A stretch of DNA of 64,000 bases. Origin: Pleurocapsa minor HA4230-MV1. Its GTDB lineage: Bacteria; Cyanobacteriota; Cyanobacteriia; Cyanobacteriales; Xenococcaceae. Under the pieces are notes generated by a model, which ran no database searches, was not told the origin of the DNA, and was given only the letters and a program-made list of their open reading frames with translations. The first letter of the stretch is position 1. Every line of letters starts with the position of its first letter. This document shows positions 12,798 to 63,754 of this stretch, one piece after another. Position numbers and translations under genes: made by a program. The stretch lies in assembly GCA_019359095.1 (NCBI GenBank), contig JAHHHZ010000017.1, forward strand, positions 248,001-312,000, in the 5' to 3' direction.

Positions 12798-13265
12798 ATG
12801 AATAAAGAGTTTTCTTTACTTTCCCCAACGGTTCAAGATCTTATTCAATCCCTGGATCTAGAGGCGCATCCAGAAGGAGGTTTTTATCGAGAGACATGGC
12901 GCTCAAACCTAATTTTGCCACAATCTACTCTACCTGATGGTTATGGGGGCGATCGCGTGGCTGGTACCGCTATTTTGTTTTTATTACCCACTGGTCATAG
13001 TTCTCGCTGGCACCGAGTAAAATCAGCTGAACTTTGGTTTCATCAAAAAGGAGATCCTCTAGAGTTAACCATTGCAGCATCGATTGAGCCAGAATCACCA
13101 TCAATCTATTTAGGTCGCGATCGCTGTTTTCAGGCAGTAGTACCCCCCCATTGGTGGCAGAAAGCTCAACCTATAGGTGGGGACGCGGGATATGCTTTAG
13201 TTGCCTGTGTGGTTGTTCCAGGCTTTGATTTTGACGATTTTGAGCTAATTGGTGAGGAGAAATAA
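12798..13265 (+). CDS. Cupin-fold DUF985-family protein
   Basis: A 155-residue single-domain cupin of the DUF985 (cupin_5) family. The family signature HPEGGFYRETWRS is at residues 23-35; SSRWHRVKSAELWFHQKGDPLEL forms the barrel strands near residues 73-95 with His residues that could bind metal; PPHWWQKA follows. Members are small barrels of unknown biochemical function, possibly sugar or metabolite binding. It is divergent from the cysQ-like gene with a 71-bp gap. Confidence 0.85.
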   Translation: MNKEFSLLSPTVQDLIQSLDLEAHPEGGFYRETWRSNLILPQSTLPDGYGGDRVAGTAILFLLPTGHSSRWHRVKSAELWFHQKGDPLELTIAASIEPESPSIYLGRDRCFQAVVPPHWWQKAQPIGGDAGYALVACVVVPGFDFDDFELIGEEK

Positions 13266-13287
13266 TTGCGCGAGTAATCTTCTGGAG

Positions 13288-15381
13288 CTAATAGCTAATA
13301 GCTTCACTTTTAAATAGCTTGATAACTTCAGGATTATAAACTAGCATATAGTTCCAATAGTTTTCAAACACTGACTCTACATAGCCTTGTGTTTCCTGAT
13401 AAGGAATTTGCTCGACAAACTCATCGGCATCTTTTAAACCATAACGCTTAACCCATTTGGCTACAGCATTAGGCCCCGCATTATAGCTAGCTACTGCCAA
13501 CATGGAGTTGTTGTTATATTTTTGGTGAGTAAAGTCTAGATAGTAAGTGCCAATATTGATATTATCTTCAGGGTTAGTCATGGAATAGTTAGCTAAACCG
13601 ATATTTTCGGCTGCTGCTTTAGCTGTTGGCGGAATGACTTGCATCAAACCCATTGCTCCCGCCGAAGATTCAATTTCTGGCTCAAAGCGAGATTCTTGGC
13701 GGATTAAAGAAGTAACTAATAACGGGTTGAGTTGACGCTGTTTAGACCATTTTAAAATAGTTGACTCAAACGGAAACGGATAAAGAGCTTGCCAATACTC
13801 AGGAGTTTGACGCAGTTGTTGCCATTGTTGTTTGTCTTCTGGACTATCTCTGTCTTGAAGATCGCCAATTTGGTTAATGCCGCGTAAATTTTGTCCTTGA
13901 TAGAGTTGTAATAGACCTTTGGTAAAATCATCGGCGATGCTTAATTTAGAGCGATCGCTAATTTCGCTTTGAAATTGTGTCCAAGCTTCCTGTTCTAGTC
14001 CTAATTTGTATAGCTCTTGGAAGGTTTTTGACCCCCCTGGAGGCATAATTTTCTCCACCTTAAGTACTTGAGGATCTTGCCGACGTATCGTGGTAAAGTC
14101 TCCCACATCCCAACCTAACGCCACCGCTGAGCGCCAAGCATAATATGACCGAGGAAATCTAGCTAGTACAGATTTATAGGCAACAGTAGCCTCTTGGGGA
14201 CGATTAAGCTTAGTTGCCCACTTCGCAATCCAGAATCCCGCCTTGGGTGCGAGTTTACTCTCGGGATTATTAATCACAATCGGTTGCGCCCATTGCCAGG
14301 CGCTGATTAAATCTCCTGCTTGCGCTTTGTTACTGGCAACATCCCAGCGATATTCGGCTGCTGCTTCGGAAGTTTTATAGTCAGTTAAGAGGGTTTGTAG
14401 AGCCTGGGTGGCAGATTTTGGGCTATTTAAAAGCTTGAAATATTGCGCTTTTTCTACTAAAGCTTCGGGCGCTTGTTGAGGAAATTGCGCGATCGCTCGC
14501 TCTAAATAGGTCACTGCTGCTTGAGGCTTAACCAGCGTAGCCAGCCGCCTTAAACCCAATCCTGTATCGACCGCCTCGGGATACTCTTGAATTAACTTAA
14601 GATAGTATTTTTTTGCCGTAACTTGGTCATTACCCAGGTGATGTCCTCGCCCTGCACGATATAGATTACGAGATGTATTCGGGGCTTTAGTGTAAGCTTG
14701 ACCTGCTTTGCCATAATCCCACTTGAGCCAGTAGCTATCGGCGATCGCCTCCCATTCGAGAGGAGTCAAGTGATGGGCATATTCTGTGACCAGGCGATCG
14801 CGCATTTGGTCTACCCCAGGAGCATCAGGAGTATATTTAACTAAAATCGCCATCAGACTTGGTTGATTGGGATTTTTACTCAACTGCTGCCGAATAATTT
14901 CTTGGGTGCTGGGATGAGCGGGAAATTCGGCGATCGCCTGTTGCCAATATTCAGGCTGCGATTTCCCCAGAAGGTATAGTGCTTCTCCTGTAACAGCAGA
15001 TGTGGGATATTGAGCTACTACCTGTTGCCAAGTTTGAACTGCTGCTGAATCGTTTTGCTCAAGCTGGTATGCTTTACCTTTAGCCAGTAAAATATGAGCT
15101 GCCAGCAGAGGATATTCTTGCTCTAAATCTTCAAGTTCGGTTAATGCTGCTTTGCCTTGTCGATCCTCAATTAAATCTGAAGCAACCAGGAAACTATGAC
15201 GAGTACTTGCTGGTGGATTACCCATCGCTAGAGGCGTTTGCTCAGTAGACAGATCATTTTTATAATCAGCAGTATCAGCAAAGGATTTACTGGCATCAAT
15301 CAAAGCTTCTAAACCTATTACTGTTGATATTGAAGCAAGAACAATTAAGAGAAAAACTTTGCTATTCAATAATTTCCACAT
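13288..15381 (-). CDS. Soluble lytic murein transglycosylase-like protein (SLT domain)
   Basis: A 697-residue peptidoglycan lyase that would cleave between MurNAc and GlcNAc in the periplasm. Residues 8-28 form a signal anchor. The long middle region (about 60-530) is built of TPR-like helical hairpins, as in Slt70. The C-terminal SLT catalytic domain starts near residue 545: TSLIRQESRFEPE contains the catalytic Glu (about residue 564), followed by AGAMGLMQVIPPTA and the SYNAGPNAVAKW motif. Stands alone; convergent with the DUF985 gene. Confidence 0.9.
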   Translation of the reverse strand: MWKLLNSKVFLLIVLASISTVIGLEALIDASKSFADTADYKNDLSTEQTPLAMGNPPASTRHSFLVASDLIEDRQGKAALTELEDLEQEYPLLAAHILLAKGKAYQLEQNDSAAVQTWQQVVAQYPTSAVTGEALYLLGKSQPEYWQQAIAEFPAHPSTQEIIRQQLSKNPNQPSLMAILVKYTPDAPGVDQMRDRLVTEYAHHLTPLEWEAIADSYWLKWDYGKAGQAYTKAPNTSRNLYRAGRGHHLGNDQVTAKKYYLKLIQEYPEAVDTGLGLRRLATLVKPQAAVTYLERAIAQFPQQAPEALVEKAQYFKLLNSPKSATQALQTLLTDYKTSEAAAEYRWDVASNKAQAGDLISAWQWAQPIVINNPESKLAPKAGFWIAKWATKLNRPQEATVAYKSVLARFPRSYYAWRSAVALGWDVGDFTTIRRQDPQVLKVEKIMPPGGSKTFQELYKLGLEQEAWTQFQSEISDRSKLSIADDFTKGLLQLYQGQNLRGINQIGDLQDRDSPEDKQQWQQLRQTPEYWQALYPFPFESTILKWSKQRQLNPLLVTSLIRQESRFEPEIESSAGAMGLMQVIPPTAKAAAENIGLANYSMTNPEDNINIGTYYLDFTHQKYNNNSMLAVASYNAGPNAVAKWVKRYGLKDADEFVEQIPYQETQGYVESVFENYWNYMLVYNPEVIKLFKSEAISY

Positions 15382-15710
15382 ATTAGTTTTTTAAAGGCAT
15401 ACAGACGTAGCTATAAGATTAATATTCCCCTGAAAAATATTTTTTATATCATTCAAATAATTGACTGATAATAATTATTTCTTAGTTAATGATTGAGTAA
15501 CAGTAATCTAAATGCTTAGATCGAGATCGGTAATAGTTTTATTTTATTGTTTTTACTATAGTTAAATTATGCAGTTACATTGAAGTTTTGATGAAGTAAA
15601 CAAAAAGTTGCTTCAAATTCAATACCTGACAGGGTACTTATAGCCCTATGTAACAACGTTAGGACATCTTGGAAATACTACTCCCTATTTGCGAAGCTTA
15701 TCCTTTAGGA

Positions 15711-53974: not shown

Positions 53975-56900
53975 TTATAAATTTTGAGCAATGGGTGCGA
54001 CTGATGGCTGCACTACCTCTTTTTCCTCGTTCAGAATTTTGCAGACGGCCTGCTCTATGTCTGGCTGCTTGACTAAAGACTCTCCAATCAGCACGGCACG
54101 CGCTCCCGCTTGAGCCACCCGTTCTAAATCGGCACGTTCTGACAAACCTGACTCGCTAACTACTTTTATTCCCCTGCTCTCTATCTGTTCTCGCTGCTGC
54201 TGAATTAATTGTTCGGTAGTTTTAAGATCGACAGAAAAGTTTTCAAGATCGCGATTATTAATTCCGAGCAGGCGCAAGCCAGTTAAAGAAAGGGCGCGAT
54301 TGAGTTCTGCTGCTGTATGCACTTCTACCAATGCCGTCATGCCTAGAGAATGGATCGTGTTTAAAAAGTCTTGCAGATCGCGATCGCTTAAAATAGCAAC
54401 GATAAGTATTACCGCATCGGCTCCTGCTGCTCTGGCTAAGTAAATTTGGTGAATGTCGATGATGAAATCTTTGCATAGCAGCGGTAAAGATACGCTGCGA
54501 CGAATCAAATGCAAATTATCAAAACTGCCTTGAAAAAATTGGCTATCGGTTAGCACCGACAAACAGGTAGCACCAGCTCGTTCATAAGATCGAGCAATAC
54601 TAACAGGATCGAAGTCTGCTCGAATAATTCCTTTACTTGGCGAAGCTTTTTTCACTTCGGCAATTAAGCTGGGATGGCTATGACTTGACTGTAAGGCTAA
54701 GAGAAAGTCTTTGGCTGGTGGCACTGCGCGAACTTGACTTTTTAGCTCCAGAAGAGTCAGCGAAGCCTGCATTTGAGCTACTTCTTGTTCTTTATGCCAA
54801 ACAATTTCTTCGAGAATATGACGTGGTTCAGTATTAGAAGCCGCAATTTGGTAGCCTTTTCCTACTTGGTGAGGCACTCGACGACGAATTTGTATACTTT
54901 GACTGGACTTAGCGTAGCTTTGAATTACGTTTTTAATAATCGACAAGCCAACTCCACTTCCTAGGGTCATAATCGACTCTGGGTGAAACTGAACCGCAGC
55001 GATCGCCTTAGTTTTATGTTCGATTGCCATGATTACGCCATCTTCCGACAGTGCGGTTATTTTCAGTTGCTCGGGCAACCTGTCAGCCTGAGCATACAGG
55101 GAATGGTATCGACCGACCTCAAAAGATTTCGGAACGTTTTGAAACAGTGCTGAATCTTCAACAATGTCAATGCGAGACGTTTTGCCGTGTTGGGGATAAT
55201 CTAAAATACCTAGTTCCCCTCCAAACGCTTCGACAATACCTTGCAGTCCCAAACATACGCCAAAAACTGGCAGTTCGCGCCGAACGCAGCTCATAACGGT
55301 TTCGGGAACGCCAAAGTCCCTTGGGTTACCAGGGCCAGGAGAAAATACGACGAGATCGAAAGCTTGGCGATCGAATATCGATTCGCAAAAACCGTGACGT
55401 AAGGTAGTAACAATTGCTCCAGCTTGACGCAGGTAGTTAGCTAAGGTGTGTACGAATGAGTCTTCGTAGTCGATGAGCAGCACTCGCTTTTGAACTCGAT
55501 CGGGGGATTCTTGGCTTTTGTTGGCTTTAGTCGTTTTCCCACTCTTGTCAGTCCGATCGACATAGCTTAGGGTCTGAAACAGGGCAGCAGCTTTGGTAAG
55601 GGTTTCTTGTTCTTCGGCGACAGGATCTGAATCATACAAAACAGTCGCTCCTACCCGTACTTCGGCAATAGAATTTTTAAGCCGCATTGTCCGCAGTGTT
55701 AGACCTGTATTGATATCACCGTTAAAAGCTAAATAGCCTACAGCACCACCGTACCAGCGCCGAGGGGTATGTTCGCGCTCCTCAATAAACTGCATAGCAG
55801 ATCGCTTGGGCGCACCTGTAACGGTGACAGCCCAGGCGTGGGTCAGAAAAGCATCGAGGGCATCAAATTCGGGGCGCAAAATTCCTTCAACGTGATCGAC
55901 AGTGTGAATAAGGTGACTGTACATCTCTATTTGACGGCGACCAATTACCCGTACCGAGCCTGGCTCACAAATTCGAGACTTATCGTTGCGATCTACGTCA
56001 GTACACATCGTTAACTCGGCTGCATCTTTATCAGAGTTAAGCAGCAGGCGAATCTGAGCAGCATCACCGATCGCATCGACACCACGACCAATCGTACCGC
56101 TAATCGGGCAGGTTTCTACGTATTTACCCTCTACCCGCACAAACATTTCTGGAGAAGCACCGATCAGATATTCTCCCCCCAAATTAAGCAAGAAGCCATA
56201 GGGACTTGGATTTATTTGCTGTAAGGTACGAAATAAATCTGTAGGCGAAGCTACGCAGGATCTATAAAAGTTCTGACTCGGAACAACTTCAAATAAATCA
56301 CCGCGACGGAAGTATTCTAAAGCTTCTTCTACCTTCTTGGCGTACTCGCCTGGTACATGATCCGATTCTCGTTCGGGCGTTAACCGCTCTGCACGGTAGT
56401 CGATAAATTCACCAGTCCGAGGCATTCCTTGTGTACTACCGTGTTCAGTTTCAAACTCATATTGATATCGATATGCTTGCAAAAGATAGTAGTCTACAAC
56501 AAACAGCTCGTCAGGCAGATATAGCACCAAATCTCGCTGGTCGGCAGAGCGATCGCGATGTTTGGCAATTGACTCGAATTGGAAGACTAAATCGTAACCA
56601 AAAGCTCCATAAAGTCCCAGTTTTTCGTCTTCACCACTATAAAAAACTTGAGAAATTTCGCGGATAACACTAAACACAGAAGGTTGCTTACTTCGTTCTT
56701 CTTCGGTAAAAGACTGGGTTGTCTGCTGGATGGAGCCAACAATACTATCTTCCTCTACTGAAACCTCTTGAAGCTGCGGATGTCGGTAAAGGCGATCTCC
56801 TAAATGGGACAAAAGTACTCTGCCACGTTCGTTGAGGGCTTTTAAGGTAAAGTGGCGATCGCGTGTCGTCAGCTCTAAAGGCGGATTAACAAATCCAATT

Positions 56901-57085
56901 GCCCACCGTTTGTATCGTCCAGGATATTCATAGCTACTAACTAACAACCCTCCCCGTTGAGAATCTAGACACGATAGAACGGATTCTATCGCCTCGTCCA
57001 TTTGCATCTTAACGGTAGAGCGAGAGACTTGAATACCACCTCGAGTCGTGTAGCGATAAGAATTTGAAGTCATAGAAAATTTCAA
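53975..57085 (-). CDS. trpE: Trifunctional TrpE-TrpG-TrpC fusion
   Basis: A 1036-residue protein with three tryptophan enzymes in one chain. Residues 1-520 are anthranilate synthase component I ([50 protein letters not shown]). After a Lys/Ser linker, residues about 533-725 are the glutamine amidotransferase component II, with Cys in GVCLGLQG and His/Glu in VQFHPES. Residues about 745-1030 are indole-3-glycerol phosphate synthase ([32 protein letters not shown]). Catalytic residues look intact in all three. TrpE-TrpG fusion is known in scytonemin clusters with trpC as the next gene; here trpC is joined in frame. The gene is exactly flanked by inverted elements A and B. Confidence 0.95.
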
Positions 57086-57797: not shown

Positions 57798-57959
57798 AAT
57801 TACACGGTTGTACTTATCAAGTGTTTAGGCGATCTCAATTCATACTGACTATTACGTTTTCTAATTCTACTAGTGCAATGCGGTGAGATTAGCATTGACA
57901 GGAATTTGATAGCGTCAATGACATATTTTTACAGGCATTTAATTCAAACTTATGGACTT

Positions 57960-58955
57960 ATGGAAGAAACATTAAACGAATCGATAACCGAACCAACAAT
58001 GGAGGCTGATTTTAGTGGTACTGACACTGGTATTGGCAATACCGATAACGGTAATGGCAACAACTTTCTCGGCGACTCTGAGGGAGAATCTGGCAGTAAC
58101 AACCAGGCTGACGGTAACGGTAACTGGTTTTATGGAAATGATAACCAAGCTAACGGTAACGGTAATTGGAACTTTGGCGACGGCAACCAAGTTAACGGTA
58201 ACGGTAATTGGAATTTAAACGAAGAAAGCGGTACTACCTTGGACTCCGTTGTTGCAGGAGAAAATAATTCTCTCCCTAGTAGCGGTCTTCCAGTCGATGC
58301 ACTTGGCGGCAATAACCCAGTTCTTGCTGGTGGGAGCGATACGCCTACGACCGTTGGCGAAGGTGAGACAATAGATACGGCAGATCCAACTGGCAATCAA
58401 AACACTGTTAACGGTAACGGTAATTGGAATTTTGGTAGCAATAACGATACTTATGGTAACGGTAACTGGAATCTTGGCGATAATAATGAAGTTAGCGGCA
58501 ACGGCAATCGTCCAAGTGGTGACGACAACAGCATCTCTGGTAACGGTAATCGTGTCACTGGTGACGGCAACAGCATCAATGGCAATCGCCTCAGTTTAGA
58601 TGAAAACGACTTAAACGTATTGGGTAATGGCGATCGCTATCTCCAAACCGATACAGACGGCAATGTCTCCTTAATTAGCGATGAGTCTGCAAGCGATTCT
58701 AACTACACTTTCGACTTTGGCGGTGTGGTTGAATCGTCTGCGGATGGCGAAGTAGATGAGCTTCTAAACGGAAACGAACTATCGGCCGATGGCGATTTGG
58801 CAGGTCAGGATGTCATTGACCAGGTTTACGGCAGCTTAAACTCTGGTATGGGTTCTTTCGCAGATGGTGGCGATGCTGTAGATAGTGCAGCGGGAATCTT
58901 CCCAGAAGGAGAAATTCTGGGTGACGCATCTCCTGACGCTCTAACTGTTATGTAG
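57960..58955 (+). CDS. Asn/Gly-rich 14-residue repeat protein in scytonemin locus, unrecognised
   Basis: A highly acidic, Asn/Gly/Asp-rich protein of 331 residues with no signal peptide. Nine imperfect 14-residue repeats with consensus N-x-x-x-G-N-G-N-[W/R]-x-x-G-[D/S]-[N/D] occur in two blocks: one copy at 58038-58079 and three at 58101-58226, then five at 58401-58595. The rest is Ser/Asp/Gly-rich with few hydrophobic residues. The pattern suggests a regular solenoid or unstructured polymer. I chose ATG 57960, where the composition begins; ATG 57918 or GTG 57873 are in frame. It leads the plus-strand genes ending in scyABC, 198 bp before the next gene. Confidence 0.7.
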   Translation: MEETLNESITEPTMEADFSGTDTGIGNTDNGNGNNFLGDSEGESGSNNQADGNGNWFYGNDNQANGNGNWNFGDGNQVNGNGNWNLNEESGTTLDSVVAGENNSLPSSGLPVDALGGNNPVLAGGSDTPTTVGEGETIDTADPTGNQNTVNGNGNWNFGSNNDTYGNGNWNLGDNNEVSGNGNRPSGDDNSISGNGNRVTGDGNSINGNRLSLDENDLNVLGNGDRYLQTDTDGNVSLISDESASDSNYTFDFGGVVESSADGEVDELLNGNELSADGDLAGQDVIDQVYGSLNSGMGSFADGGDAVDSAAGIFPEGEILGDASPDALTVM

Positions 58956-59153: not shown

Positions 59154-59849
59154 ATGGCATTTGGTGATAATTCTGACGGTCAAATGGGCGATTTCGGTGG
59201 CGATACTTCTGAAAATACCACCAACTCGGCAAACGAGACATACGACTTCAGCTCTTTTGAAGCTGAGCAGCAGGGTGGCGATGATGCAAACGAATTATTA
59301 AGGGCAAGTCCCTTTGGGCCCTTGCTAGATATTCCTGGAGTCGATGGTGCAGAAGATATTTTTGGGAATGTTGGTGGCGATGCTGGCGGTTTGGGCGGTG
59401 ATGCTTCAACAATGGGCGACTCTGGAAGCGGTGTTCCTAGTGGCAACCCTTTTGCTAACTTTAATCCTCTTGAGGATGGAAATCCTCTGATCGAAGGGGA
59501 CGAACCTGATGTTTCTTTCGGTAGTGCTGGCGGTCAGATGGACGGTTTTGGTGGCGATACGTCTGAGATTGAAAATGCCGATAGTGGTGCCGACAATAGT
59601 AGCGTATCTAGTGTATTTCCCGAAAACGCAGGCAGCTACAACTATGATTTCTCCCAGGTAGAAGGTCAATATGACTTCTCCAGTAATAGTGGAAATTCTT
59701 TTGCTGGTGGCATTCCTGCTGATGTTGGCAGCGAAATTTCCTGGGAAAATAGTAGTGACCAGGGTAGCAACCCATCTGCAACAGGTGACCTTTCTTCTGC
59801 TGACACGGGAAGCTCCTTTGGAGGCACGATGGACAGCTTTGGTATATAG
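59154..59849 (+). CDS. Acidic Gly/Ser/Asp-rich protein in scytonemin locus, unrecognised
   Basis: A 231-residue acidic, Gly/Ser/Asp/Asn-rich protein without Lys-rich regions, Cys or signal peptide. It is internally duplicated: GQMGDFGGDTSE near residue 9 recurs as GQMDGFGGDTSE near residue 128, and a YDFSSFEAEQ motif recurs as YDFSQVEGQ and YDFSS. The start ATG has an AGGA upstream (ACAGGATATTAAAATG). It lies between the 14-residue repeat protein and scyA, all on the plus strand. I recognise no family; its position suggests a part in scytonemin synthesis, export or deposition, which is inference only. Confidence 0.7.
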   Translation: MAFGDNSDGQMGDFGGDTSENTTNSANETYDFSSFEAEQQGGDDANELLRASPFGPLLDIPGVDGAEDIFGNVGGDAGGLGGDASTMGDSGSGVPSGNPFANFNPLEDGNPLIEGDEPDVSFGSAGGQMDGFGGDTSEIENADSGADNSSVSSVFPENAGSYNYDFSQVEGQYDFSSNSGNSFAGGIPADVGSEISWENSSDQGSNPSATGDLSSADTGSSFGGTMDSFGI

Positions 59850-60027: not shown

Positions 60028-61851
60028 ATGACTAAAAATTTGATTCCACTAAACTCAGGTAATGGCAATAACCATGCCATTGGCAACGGTAATGGCAAAA
60101 GCGCGATCGCCTCGCAATTTCAAAACGGCAACGGTATTGCCCAGCTTTCTGTCGCTCAGGCAATAGTTCAAGTCTTAGAAAATCTAGGAGTCCGTGAGGC
60201 ATTTGGCGTATCTGGAGGGGCAATGGCAACTATTTGGAACGCTCTGTCTAATAGCTTGTTTATTGATGTACTGCACTGCCGTCATGAAGGAGGAGCTGCT
60301 TTTGCAGCAACTGAAGCTCACTTTGCCAGCGATCGCCCGATGGCGGTCTTTACTACCGCAGGGCCAGGTATTACCAACGCTCTTACTGGACTGCTGGCAG
60401 CGCGGGATGAAGGAGCCAAGATTATTTACCTCTCCGCCTGTACCTCAGCTTCGCAGCGCGGACGTTGGGCAATTCAGGAAACGAGCGACTATACAATTCC
60501 TAAAGGTGGCATCTTTACCTCTGGTGCTTTATTCAATTACGCAACAACTTTAGAGTCTCCCCAGCAGCTTCCCCAAATCGCTCGTAGATTGGCACTAGGC
60601 TTAGCACAGCCAGGGGGATTCGTAGCTCATATTAGTATTCCGACAGGCGTTCAGTCTATGCCGATTGAAACTCCTATCCCAGAAGTCAACCTTGCTCCTG
60701 CGCTTCCAGTTCCCAGCCAGAAAACGGTGGAGACAGCAGCACAATTACTTTCCGAAGGCTCCTTTGCAATTTGGGCAGGTTTCGGAGCGCGAGGAGCAGC
60801 AGCAGGAATCCGCGAACTAGCCGAAAGATCGGGAGCAGCCGTTATGTGTTCTCCTCGTGCCAAGGGTATTTTTCCTGAAAATCATCCCCAATACGTGGGT
60901 GTAACAGGCGTAGGTGGACATGAATCAGTGATGAACTATATGCAGGATTGTTCGCCTCAACGCATTTTAGTACTAGGAACTCGTCTTGGCGAACCGACTT
61001 CCTTTTGGAGCAAAGATATGATTCCCGCTAAAGGATTTATTCACGTCGATATCGATCCGAAAGTGCCTGGGGTTGCTTTTCCATTTGCAGATACTTTACC
61101 GATTATTGCGGATGCAAATATTTTTGTGCAGGCACTGCTTGAACATTTTCCCCAGCAAACTGAACAAAACATCGCCCTACCTAATCCCAAACAAGATGAG
61201 ATTGCCCCAACTGACAGCAAGTTAGTTAGACCAGAAATTCTGATGCAGGCAATTCAGCGTATCGTGGTTGAGGGCAGCGACGCAGTTGTTCTATCTGAGT
61301 CGGGAAATTCTTTTACCTGGACAACTAATATGCTCAGGTTTCCCCAAGCCAATCGCTACCGAGTTAGTACTGGAGTTGGCTCGATGGGACATAACGTTAC
61401 TGGTGTTATCGGTGCTGCCAAAGGGCGTAACGGTAAAGCCGTAGCGATCGTCGGCGATGGCTCGATGCTAATGAACAGCGAAGTCAGCACAGCCGTCAAG
61501 TACCAGCTTCCTGCTGTCTGGATCGTTCTTAACGATGGTTACTACAATATGTGCAATCAGGGGATGACTCTTTTGGGTATGAAAGGGGCAGACGCTAAAC
61601 TACCAGACACGAATTTTAGTCTCATTGCTCGCGGTATGGGTGCCGAAGGTATCTGCGTGGAAGCGGAGGCTGGGCTTGAGTCAGCTTTAAAAAAAGCGAT
61701 GGCAGCAAAAGGCCCAGTGGTTTTAGATGTCACCATCGATCCTACTCGTTTTGCACCCTCTAAAGGACGCAACAAGAGCCTCAGCGCGCAGGGTGTTAAA
61801 TCTACTAAACAGGTGGAGAAAGGAAAGCAAGTTTCGTTTCCGTTAGTTTAA
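60028..61851 (+). CDS. scyA: ScyA, thiamine-diphosphate enzyme of scytonemin synthesis
   Basis: A 607-residue acetolactate synthase-like enzyme. In Nostoc punctiforme ScyA couples indole-3-pyruvate with p-hydroxyphenylpyruvate to form the scytonemin monomer precursor. The ThDP catalytic Glu is in HCRHEGGAAFAA (Glu87) and the diphosphate/metal motif GDGSMLMNSE to NDGYYNM begins near residue 476. Three domains follow the AHAS order. Unusual is the first 36 residues, which are Asn/Gly-rich (SGNGNNHAIGNGNG, QNGNG) and recall the repeat protein two genes upstream. It lies 178 bp after the preceding gene and 847 bp before scyB. Confidence 0.92.
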   Translation: MTKNLIPLNSGNGNNHAIGNGNGKSAIASQFQNGNGIAQLSVAQAIVQVLENLGVREAFGVSGGAMATIWNALSNSLFIDVLHCRHEGGAAFAATEAHFASDRPMAVFTTAGPGITNALTGLLAARDEGAKIIYLSACTSASQRGRWAIQETSDYTIPKGGIFTSGALFNYATTLESPQQLPQIARRLALGLAQPGGFVAHISIPTGVQSMPIETPIPEVNLAPALPVPSQKTVETAAQLLSEGSFAIWAGFGARGAAAGIRELAERSGAAVMCSPRAKGIFPENHPQYVGVTGVGGHESVMNYMQDCSPQRILVLGTRLGEPTSFWSKDMIPAKGFIHVDIDPKVPGVAFPFADTLPIIADANIFVQALLEHFPQQTEQNIALPNPKQDEIAPTDSKLVRPEILMQAIQRIVVEGSDAVVLSESGNSFTWTTNMLRFPQANRYRVSTGVGSMGHNVTGVIGAAKGRNGKAVAIVGDGSMLMNSEVSTAVKYQLPAVWIVLNDGYYNMCNQGMTLLGMKGADAKLPDTNFSLIARGMGAEGICVEAEAGLESALKKAMAAKGPVVLDVTIDPTRFAPSKGRNKSLSAQGVKSTKQVEKGKQVSFPLV

Positions 61852-62698: not shown

Positions 62699-63754
62699 GT
62701 GGAGCTTTTTGAAACTGTTACACAAATGGGTCACGAACAAGTTCTTTTTTGCCACAACCCAGAACAAAATTTAAAGGCAATAATTGCGATTCACGACGCT
62801 AGCTTGGGTTCGGCAATGGGAGCAACTCGTTTGTGGCCCTATGCTAATGAAGCTGATGCACTGCGAGACGTTCTCCGCCTTAGTCGTGGTATGACATATA
62901 AGGCAGCCTGTGCCAATATTCCCGTTGGTGGTGCTAAAGCCGTAATTATTGCCGATCCGAAAGCTAAAACCAGTGAGCTTTTGAGAGCATATGGACGCTT
63001 TGTTGACAGCTTAAACGGACGTTTTATCACTGGACAAGATGTAAATCTTGTTCCCCAGGACGTGCGGGAAATTAGTCAGGAAACCAAGCATATTGTTGGA
63101 GTAACCGAGAAATCTGGAGGGCCTGCTTTTATAACAGCACAGGGAGTCTTATTTGGCATCAAAGCTGCGGTAGAGTTTAGCTCAAATAAAAAACTTAACG
63201 AGCTGAAAATTGCCGTTCAAGGATTAGGAAATGTTGGTAGTAATCTATGCAAGCTTCTCTCTGAAAATGGGGTAACTCTTTTTGTCACTGACATTAATCC
63301 TGAAAAAACGGCAGAAATTGAGCGTCTTTACGGAGCTACAGTTGTAGACCCCGATCAGATTTATAGTCTCGATGTTGATATTTTTTCTCCCTGTGCTTTG
63401 GGAGCAACTTTAAACGATTCAACAATTCCTTTGCTCAAAGCCTCAATCGTTGCTGGTGCTGCTAATAATCAGCTTGAAAACGAACAGCTACATAGCAAAC
63501 TCCTTAAATCCAGAGGAATTTTTTATTGTCCCGACTACGTGATTAATGCTGGAGGCTTGATCGACGTTTACAACGAAATGATTGGCTACGAAGAAGAGAA
63601 AGTATTTAAGCACCTAAACGGCATTTATGACACCTTGCTAGAAATATTTAGCATTGCCAAGCAACAAGACATAACTAATTTTGAGGCTGCTCAAAAATTA
63701 GCAGAGCAGCGCATCAAAAAAGCGCGATCGCAAAAGGCGACAAAAGAACACTAA
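62699..63754 (+). CDS. scyB: ScyB, leucine dehydrogenase-like tryptophan dehydrogenase
   Basis: A 351-residue NAD-dependent amino acid dehydrogenase that, by family knowledge, oxidatively deaminates tryptophan to indole-3-pyruvate for scytonemin. The catalytic Lys is within TYKAACANIPVGGAKAVI (near residue 76-90); the nucleotide-binding GLGNVGSNLCKLL is near residue 176. The start is GTG, supported by an AGGAG ribosome-binding site eight bases before it (AGGAGAGCAAAGTG) and by the family N-terminus ELFETVTQMGHEQVLF. scyC follows 15 bp downstream, so the two are cotranscribed. Confidence 0.93.
   Translation: MELFETVTQMGHEQVLFCHNPEQNLKAIIAIHDASLGSAMGATRLWPYANEADALRDVLRLSRGMTYKAACANIPVGGAKAVIIADPKAKTSELLRAYGRFVDSLNGRFITGQDVNLVPQDVREISQETKHIVGVTEKSGGPAFITAQGVLFGIKAAVEFSSNKKLNELKIAVQGLGNVGSNLCKLLSENGVTLFVTDINPEKTAEIERLYGATVVDPDQIYSLDVDIFSPCALGATLNDSTIPLLKASIVAGAANNQLENEQLHSKLLKSRGIFYCPDYVINAGGLIDVYNEMIGYEEEKVFKHLNGIYDTLLEIFSIAKQQDITNFEAAQKLAEQRIKKARSQKATKEH

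Follow-up and report, generated by a model that had tools for sequence, protein, structure and literature searches.

Beside scyA and scyB in the cyanobacterium Pleurocapsa minor HA4230-MV1 lies a gene for an acidic, Asn/Gly-rich repeat protein, here called REP, and the question that it raises is whether this protein belongs to the trait of scytonemin, a brown sunscreen pigment, and, if so, in what role. The window analysed here is a stretch of 64,000 nucleotides, to which the following coordinates refer:

57960..58955 (stop included), plus strand: REP, acidic Asn/Gly repeat protein without leader, 331 aa (composition, dN/dS, homologues)
59154..59849, plus strand: partner (SPFG family), 231 aa, leaderless, the next gene after REP (sequence)
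60028..61851, plus strand: scyA (NF035923, 1008.6 bits, slightly below the cut-off of 1020)
62699..63754, plus strand: scyB (NF035922, 619.2 bits, cut-off 600)

Past the window, the order continues with scyC, a 1062-aa ScyD/ScyE-GDSL protein (L002:9034-12222, contig G000:C17; in it, a GDSL lipase part is joined to one of the ScyD/ScyE family) and eboA-F, the scyC and ebo names being assigned by comparison. The oppositely directed genes upstream of REP we take to be trp and DAHP-synthase genes. At 53975-57085 on the minus strand there is one 1036-aa ORF, presumably TrpE, TrpG and TrpC, where the related genomes G005 and G012 have a pair of ORFs, one of about 735 aa and one of 310-323 aa.

The REP gene is real and under selection. 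Its dN/dS is 0.17, 0.28 and 0.24 against G005, G012 and G016, indicating purifying selection (for scyA, the value against G005 is 0.11). The start at 57960 is backed by three relatives beginning with MEETLN, and an in-frame GTG upstream, at 57873, receives no support as a start from these relatives. With 57 acidic and four basic residues in 331 (G 58, N 55, D 36, E 21, R 4, W 5, K 0, C 0) and an N-terminus that a hydrophobicity rule does not class as signal-like, the ORF is as the first-pass annotation had described it, namely Cys-free, strongly negative and leaderless. Neither Pfam (E up to 1) nor NCBIfam has a family for REP, and in the tailed relatives searched nothing beyond the PEP-type tail was matched.

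The repeats of REP occupy two blocks with a linker of almost 60 residues between them, rather than one run:

58038..58226, plus strand: repeat block 1, residues 27-89 (repeat analysis; model pLDDT about 55-62)
58395..58583, plus strand: repeat block 2, residues 146-208, nine heptads (aligns with 3ULT; model pLDDT 63-76)
58620..58697, plus strand: conserved stretch 3' of the repeats, LGNGDRYL..DGNVSLISDESASD (alignment A2)

The strict form N-x-x-x-G-N-G-N-[W/R] occurs seven times (residues 48, 62, 76, 148, 162, 176 and 190), GNGN eight times, and one further degenerate copy, GNGDR at residue 222, brings the number to nine. The ninefold count given earlier for this 14-residue pattern is thus reached only with degenerate copies, since relaxed criteria yield eight or nine copies and the strict pattern seven. 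All five Trp residues of REP fall inside repeats. In 10000 composition shuffles, the maxima were one strict copy, four GNGN and four heptad pairs, against seven, eight and 13 in REP itself. Self-identity peaks at lags of 7, 14, 21 and 28 residues (z = 5.0, 8.1, 5.7 and 4.3), and therefore the basic unit is a heptad, xxNx[VIT]xG, which is paired to form the 14-residue repeat (NQNTVNG NGNWNFG SNNDTYG NGNWNLG DNNEVSG NGNRPSG DDNSISG NGNRVTG DGNSING). Trp, for which pigment binding had been proposed, is conserved: in a set of 312 repeat units from 41 REP ORFs it fills position 9 in 72%, and position 11 has an aromatic residue in 62% and position 3 a Thr in 60%. To judge from residue patterns, Val or Ile at position 3 of the window REP would argue for Trp pointing outward, and the variable position 10 in the tailed REP clade for Trp in the core.

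It had been suggested that such repeats form a solenoid, and both profile comparison and structure prediction support this idea with modest confidence. A profile of the window REP and five relatives (A2) has a single good match among solved structures, the beta-roll of the ice-recrystallisation-inhibition (IRI) protein of the grass Lolium perenne (PDB 3ULT; E=3.6e-6, next match 0.54), which already comes first with the REP sequence alone (0.046). The A2-3ULT score is 29.9 bits. Since controls score far lower, reaching at most 4.6 bits with 200 column-permuted profiles and 6.1 bits with 5000 shuffled targets (shuffled from 113 residues of 3ULT), the match does not reflect composition. A profile of the tailed clade (A3) gave no match to 3ULT, so that the likeness, in which Asn and Gly fall at matching heptad positions with a 14-residue period, holds for the clade of the window REP. 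Passages of PMC7383708 give 14-15 residues for the grass IRI coils. AlphaFold2 predicted three-residue strands every seven residues for the window REP (mean pLDDT 50, block 2 63-76); for the tailed clade, it gave coils with two strands each and helices at the C-terminus (mean pLDDT 63, repeats 64-81); a Foldseek search with the REP models returned no significant match at E<=0.001. The repeats are accordingly modelled, with modest confidence, as a narrow beta-solenoid whose coils take up about 14 residues each, with a pair of short strands and a pair of Gly/Asn turns per coil as in the grass beta-roll, and REP probably folds into a thin rod. Its Trp/Phe strands, the split of the array, the Gly-rich arms and the existence of a partner protein set REP apart from 3ULT.

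Other repeat proteins fared less well. Kinship with the mycobacterial PPE-MPTR proteins, which likewise carry Asn/Gly-rich tandem repeats and had been offered as a loose parallel, was not borne out: no Pfam family matched REP at E up to 1, a result to be read with the caveat that HMMER filters may hide weak low-complexity matches, and the REP repeat itself differs. RTX, curlin and YadA-head models were rejected on the same search and with the same caveat. The heads of YadA-type trimeric adhesins have a 14-residue coil as REP does, whereas REP is without stalk or anchor; CbpF of Fusobacterium was the third A2 match among structures, at a non-significant E=9.3.

REP does not stand alone. The next gene encodes a protein with 42 acidic residues, one basic residue and no Cys, for which Pfam and NCBIfam hold no family either. 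Its signature, LLRQSPFG-x-L-[L/F]-DIPG..EDIFGN, lies in the following motif:

59289..59378, plus strand: partner motif NELLRASPFGPLLDIPGVDGAEDIFGNVGG (such a motif in 26 ORFs of other loci)

Half of the 26 ORFs in which the loose signature was found among the loci inspected also carry repeats; of these 13, six have the full signature (L054-L058, L068) and seven the variant SPFDxL. In G005, repeat and partner are fused as one 1070-aa ORF. REP and its partner are thus adjacent or fused, which is good evidence for a joint function. The dN/dS of the partner was left out because dS is saturated.

The REP family nearly tracks scytonemin genes, which establishes a genetic link, and cyanobacteria with these genes usually carry REP as well. 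With the window REP as query, nine of 100 related genomes (the window genome, G000, included) gave matches at E<=0.001, and in seven these were strong (E<=1e-8; G000, G005, G012, G016, G037, G070 and G087). The weak matches of G049, the translation of a simple repeat, and G027, with stop codons within the match, were set aside. ScyB was matched in ten of the 100 genomes. Those of G017, G026 and G049 were rejected as scytonemin ScyB, as they belong to another cluster without scyC in the stretch inspected, and the genomes left after their subtraction are the same seven as for REP (G070 was scored from ScyB, ScyC and ebo genes). Strong REP matches are therefore found in 7/7 relatives with the scytonemin cluster and in 0/93 others (Fisher 6e-11, a value that ignores shared ancestry). 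Profile A3 recovered six of the seven and missed G016. A sample of 388 genomes of the class behaves similarly: ScyA-type proteins occur in 11, ScyB in eight and both in seven, and REP was found in six, namely five of the seven with scyA and scyB, and G209, a genome with scyA and scyC whose weak match contains stop codons (5/7 versus one weak match in 381; Fisher 1.8e-9, likewise ignoring shared ancestry, and with G000 and G087 occurring in both samples). G365 and G300, in which scy genes are present, gave no REP match.

To see where REP sits in other genomes, contigs were scanned with a ScyA-alignment profile, which gave 80 scyA loci, many with cut flanks. REP lies inside the scyA flank inspected at ten of them (Pleurocapsa CCALA 161, Cyanothece BG0011, Hydrococcus, Aphanothece, MAG SU_1_2, Trichocoleus, Chlorogloea, Aliterella, Microseira and a Chroococcus MAG), and Chroococcus FPU101 has the partner in this flank without REP. 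For 50 of the 69 loci with neither gene in the flank, the genome was searched; 43 of the 50 have REP elsewhere and seven yielded none. Because of these seven, together with G365 and G300, REP is either not indispensable or was missed in some genomes. Of the 43, 20 were inspected over wider stretches. In 12, REP is a direct neighbour of trp/aroG or ebo genes belonging to the cluster; in the other eight, some of them short contigs, no scy, trp or ebo gene stood next to it within the stretch inspected. A lack of homologues near any other scy cluster had been named as the finding that would count against membership; such homologues exist, and together with the co-occurrence they place REP among the scytonemin-associated genes. 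Its position at the head of the scy genes, as first annotated, applies to the window, whereas elsewhere REP is located before eboA, after eboF, after trp/aroG genes or off the cluster altogether. Two Nostoc genomes, G409 and G446, have a second, tail-less REP type elsewhere.

Some neighbouring proteins are worth recording. YPTEDDYTYDF-type motifs recur in a third small protein, which is encoded between REP and scyA at L055:9297-9698, L056:9423-9833 and L058:9285-9671; in L057 this motif type is inside the REP ORF. The REP genes of L142, L187 and L192 are near a large pentapeptide-repeat protein (Pfam was run on the L142 copy only), which in L142, a Nostoc locus, has 742 aa (13180-15408, minus strand) and accompanies an off-cluster pair of REP and partner.

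What might the pair do? What we infer concerns the location and export of REP, its scaffold role and any contact with pigment. The reading that we tentatively favour, and to which we give somewhat less than an even chance, is that the scytonemin trait includes REP and its SPFG partner as a two-part set, which would serve the pigmented sheath as a beta-solenoid scaffold located outside the cytoplasm. Both proteins would act outside the cytoplasm despite lacking a Sec signal peptide, and stiff solenoid rods with flexible Gly-rich arms would make a scaffold or matrix organising scytonemin and sheath polysaccharide, so that REP may contribute to keeping the pigment extracellular. The REP proteins of many lineages would be sorted or anchored by a PEP-CTERM-like tail; in the window lineage another export route might be used, perhaps read from the MxETLNE start or the C-terminus, whose acidic/hydrophobic residues might conceivably hold a type I secretion signal.

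The main competitor places the scaffold inside. REP might be a cytoplasmic or inner-membrane protein that brings ScyA-C together with the Ebo proteins and passes the monomer on to export, and the N-termini agree with this: by the hydrophobicity rule, a signal-like N-terminus is present in 0/41 REP ORFs (not all of them independent) versus 109/126 NHL (ScyD/E-type) ORFs, which fits cytoplasmic proteins better. REP also often adjoins scyA or eboA, and the N-terminal extension of the window ScyA has a short REP-like GNGN-type stretch, NSGNGNNHAIGNGNGK (60052-60099), which, however, none of seven other ScyA in the comparison has. The C-termini point outward instead. A hydrophobic C-tail is found in 17 of the 41 ORFs, with a PEP-type motif in 14 and basic residues after the tail; NCBIfam PEP_CTERM places three tailed REPs narrowly above its cut-off and misses a fourth (Trichocoleus), and the Pfam PEP-CTERM model leaves the same proteins below its own. 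Moreover, a very acidic, Gly-rich, Cys-free composition suits extracellular proteins. We therefore consider a cytoplasmic scaffold unlikely, if still worth keeping in mind.

ScyD, ScyE and ScyF (PEP-CTERM) resemble REP in belonging to the same gene cluster and in the tail found in part of the REP family; unlike them, REP has neither a Sec signal peptide nor NHL repeats, and the window REP is tail-less. A PEP-like tail without a Sec signal is unusual, since PEP-CTERM proteins are described with such a signal in passages of PMC12188702, where scytonemin of Nostoc punctiforme is said to require PEP-CTERM sorting and cyanoexosortase B is reported as essential in that species. Searches for cyanoexosortase A or B gave no match in G000 and G005, though scytonemin genes are present; the single Pfam exosortase match of G000 is exosortase O, G005 has none, and G012 and G016 have cyanoexosortase A narrowly above the cut-off. 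In the window lineage, the ScyD/ScyE-GDSL protein also shows no visible signal peptide and no PEP-CTERM tail, and a further ScyE-family protein of the window genome is leaderless too. REP and the ScyD/ScyE-GDSL protein begin alike:

57960..57980, plus strand: N-terminal MEETLNE of REP (MxETLNE start common to the ScyD/ScyE-GDSL protein, MDETLNE)

The whole genome contains this start twice, a backward control not at all. Both genes of G005, G012 and G016 have it as well, with E7 replaced in the REP of G012 and G016, and it might be a common targeting or assembly tag.

A second competitor keeps REP outside and dispenses with the pigment: REP could have a general structural or adhesive function in the sheath, with only regulation and habitat in common with scytonemin. 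Its Gly-rich arms and PEP-type tails do resemble those of proteins by which polysaccharide is attached to the surface, as described in passages of PMC12188702, and some REP copies are off the cluster. Nevertheless, many cyanobacteria without scytonemin genes also make sheaths, and from genomes of this kind REP is nearly absent, which renders this explanation doubtful, slightly more so than a cytoplasmic scaffold.

It could also be asked whether the grass likeness extends to function, REP being an ice-recrystallisation-inhibition or freeze-desiccation protein of the sheath. The grass protein is the best and only significant solved relative, and the Thr-rich row at repeat position 3 would suit such a role. 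On the other hand, REP is bacterial and its association is with pigment genes, not with cold habitats, the likeness is one of sequence and model, and Trp/Phe rows are not described for the Thr/Ser-rich grass ice face in passages of PMC7383708. We regard this as improbable. Finally, the association might mostly reflect common ancestry, with REP an old gene of one cyanobacterial group and no fixed cluster function, as the sampled genomes are related, the Fisher values ignore kinship and two genomes are shared between samples; this is very improbable, given that in the window's own family the 4/27 genomes with REP are the four with the scytonemin cluster, that the association stays while cluster position changes and that dN/dS is well below 1.

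Returning to the scaffold outside the cytoplasm, a bolder version can be formulated. PMEL amyloid is a protein on which melanin is deposited, and its likeness to REP would be one of proposed role, a protein scaffold for an aromatic pigment; no sequence kinship is claimed. By analogy, REP and partner could be the missing extracellular carrier of scytonemin, a solenoid rod templating the pigment in the sheath, with a leaderless route having replaced the Sec/exosortase route here, also for the ScyD/ScyE-type protein. This is speculative, and we think it unlikely in so complete a form. Late steps of scytonemin synthesis are placed in the periplasm in passages of PMC6282210, and those of PMC12188702 (2025) call the passage of scytonemin across the outer membrane undefined and report only the monomer so far from production in other hosts. 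As candidates for sheath organisation and outer-membrane crossing, REP and its partner are concrete, being a matrix-like pair that tracks the trait, and they could matter for production in other hosts.

With neither a Pfam or NCBIfam family nor a description found in the literature passages covered (among them PMC2726228, PMC4870267, PMC12188702, PMC6282210, PMC9796282 and PMC13308351, most subscription papers lying outside this scope), REP and the SPFG partner appear to be undescribed. The last gene of the Nostoc punctiforme cluster, NpR1259, which is of unknown function, was considered as a REP and set aside because passages of PMC2726228 describe it with two transmembrane stretches and no homologue.

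ScyB-like genes also turned up in another setting. In L196, L197 and L198, a ScyB-like and a second dehydrogenase gene are beside the gene of a 541-aa ThDP enzyme, and two of the three loci have an aldehyde-dehydrogenase-like gene. With these presumed gene identities, the genes possibly form a pathway from tryptophan to indole-acetate.
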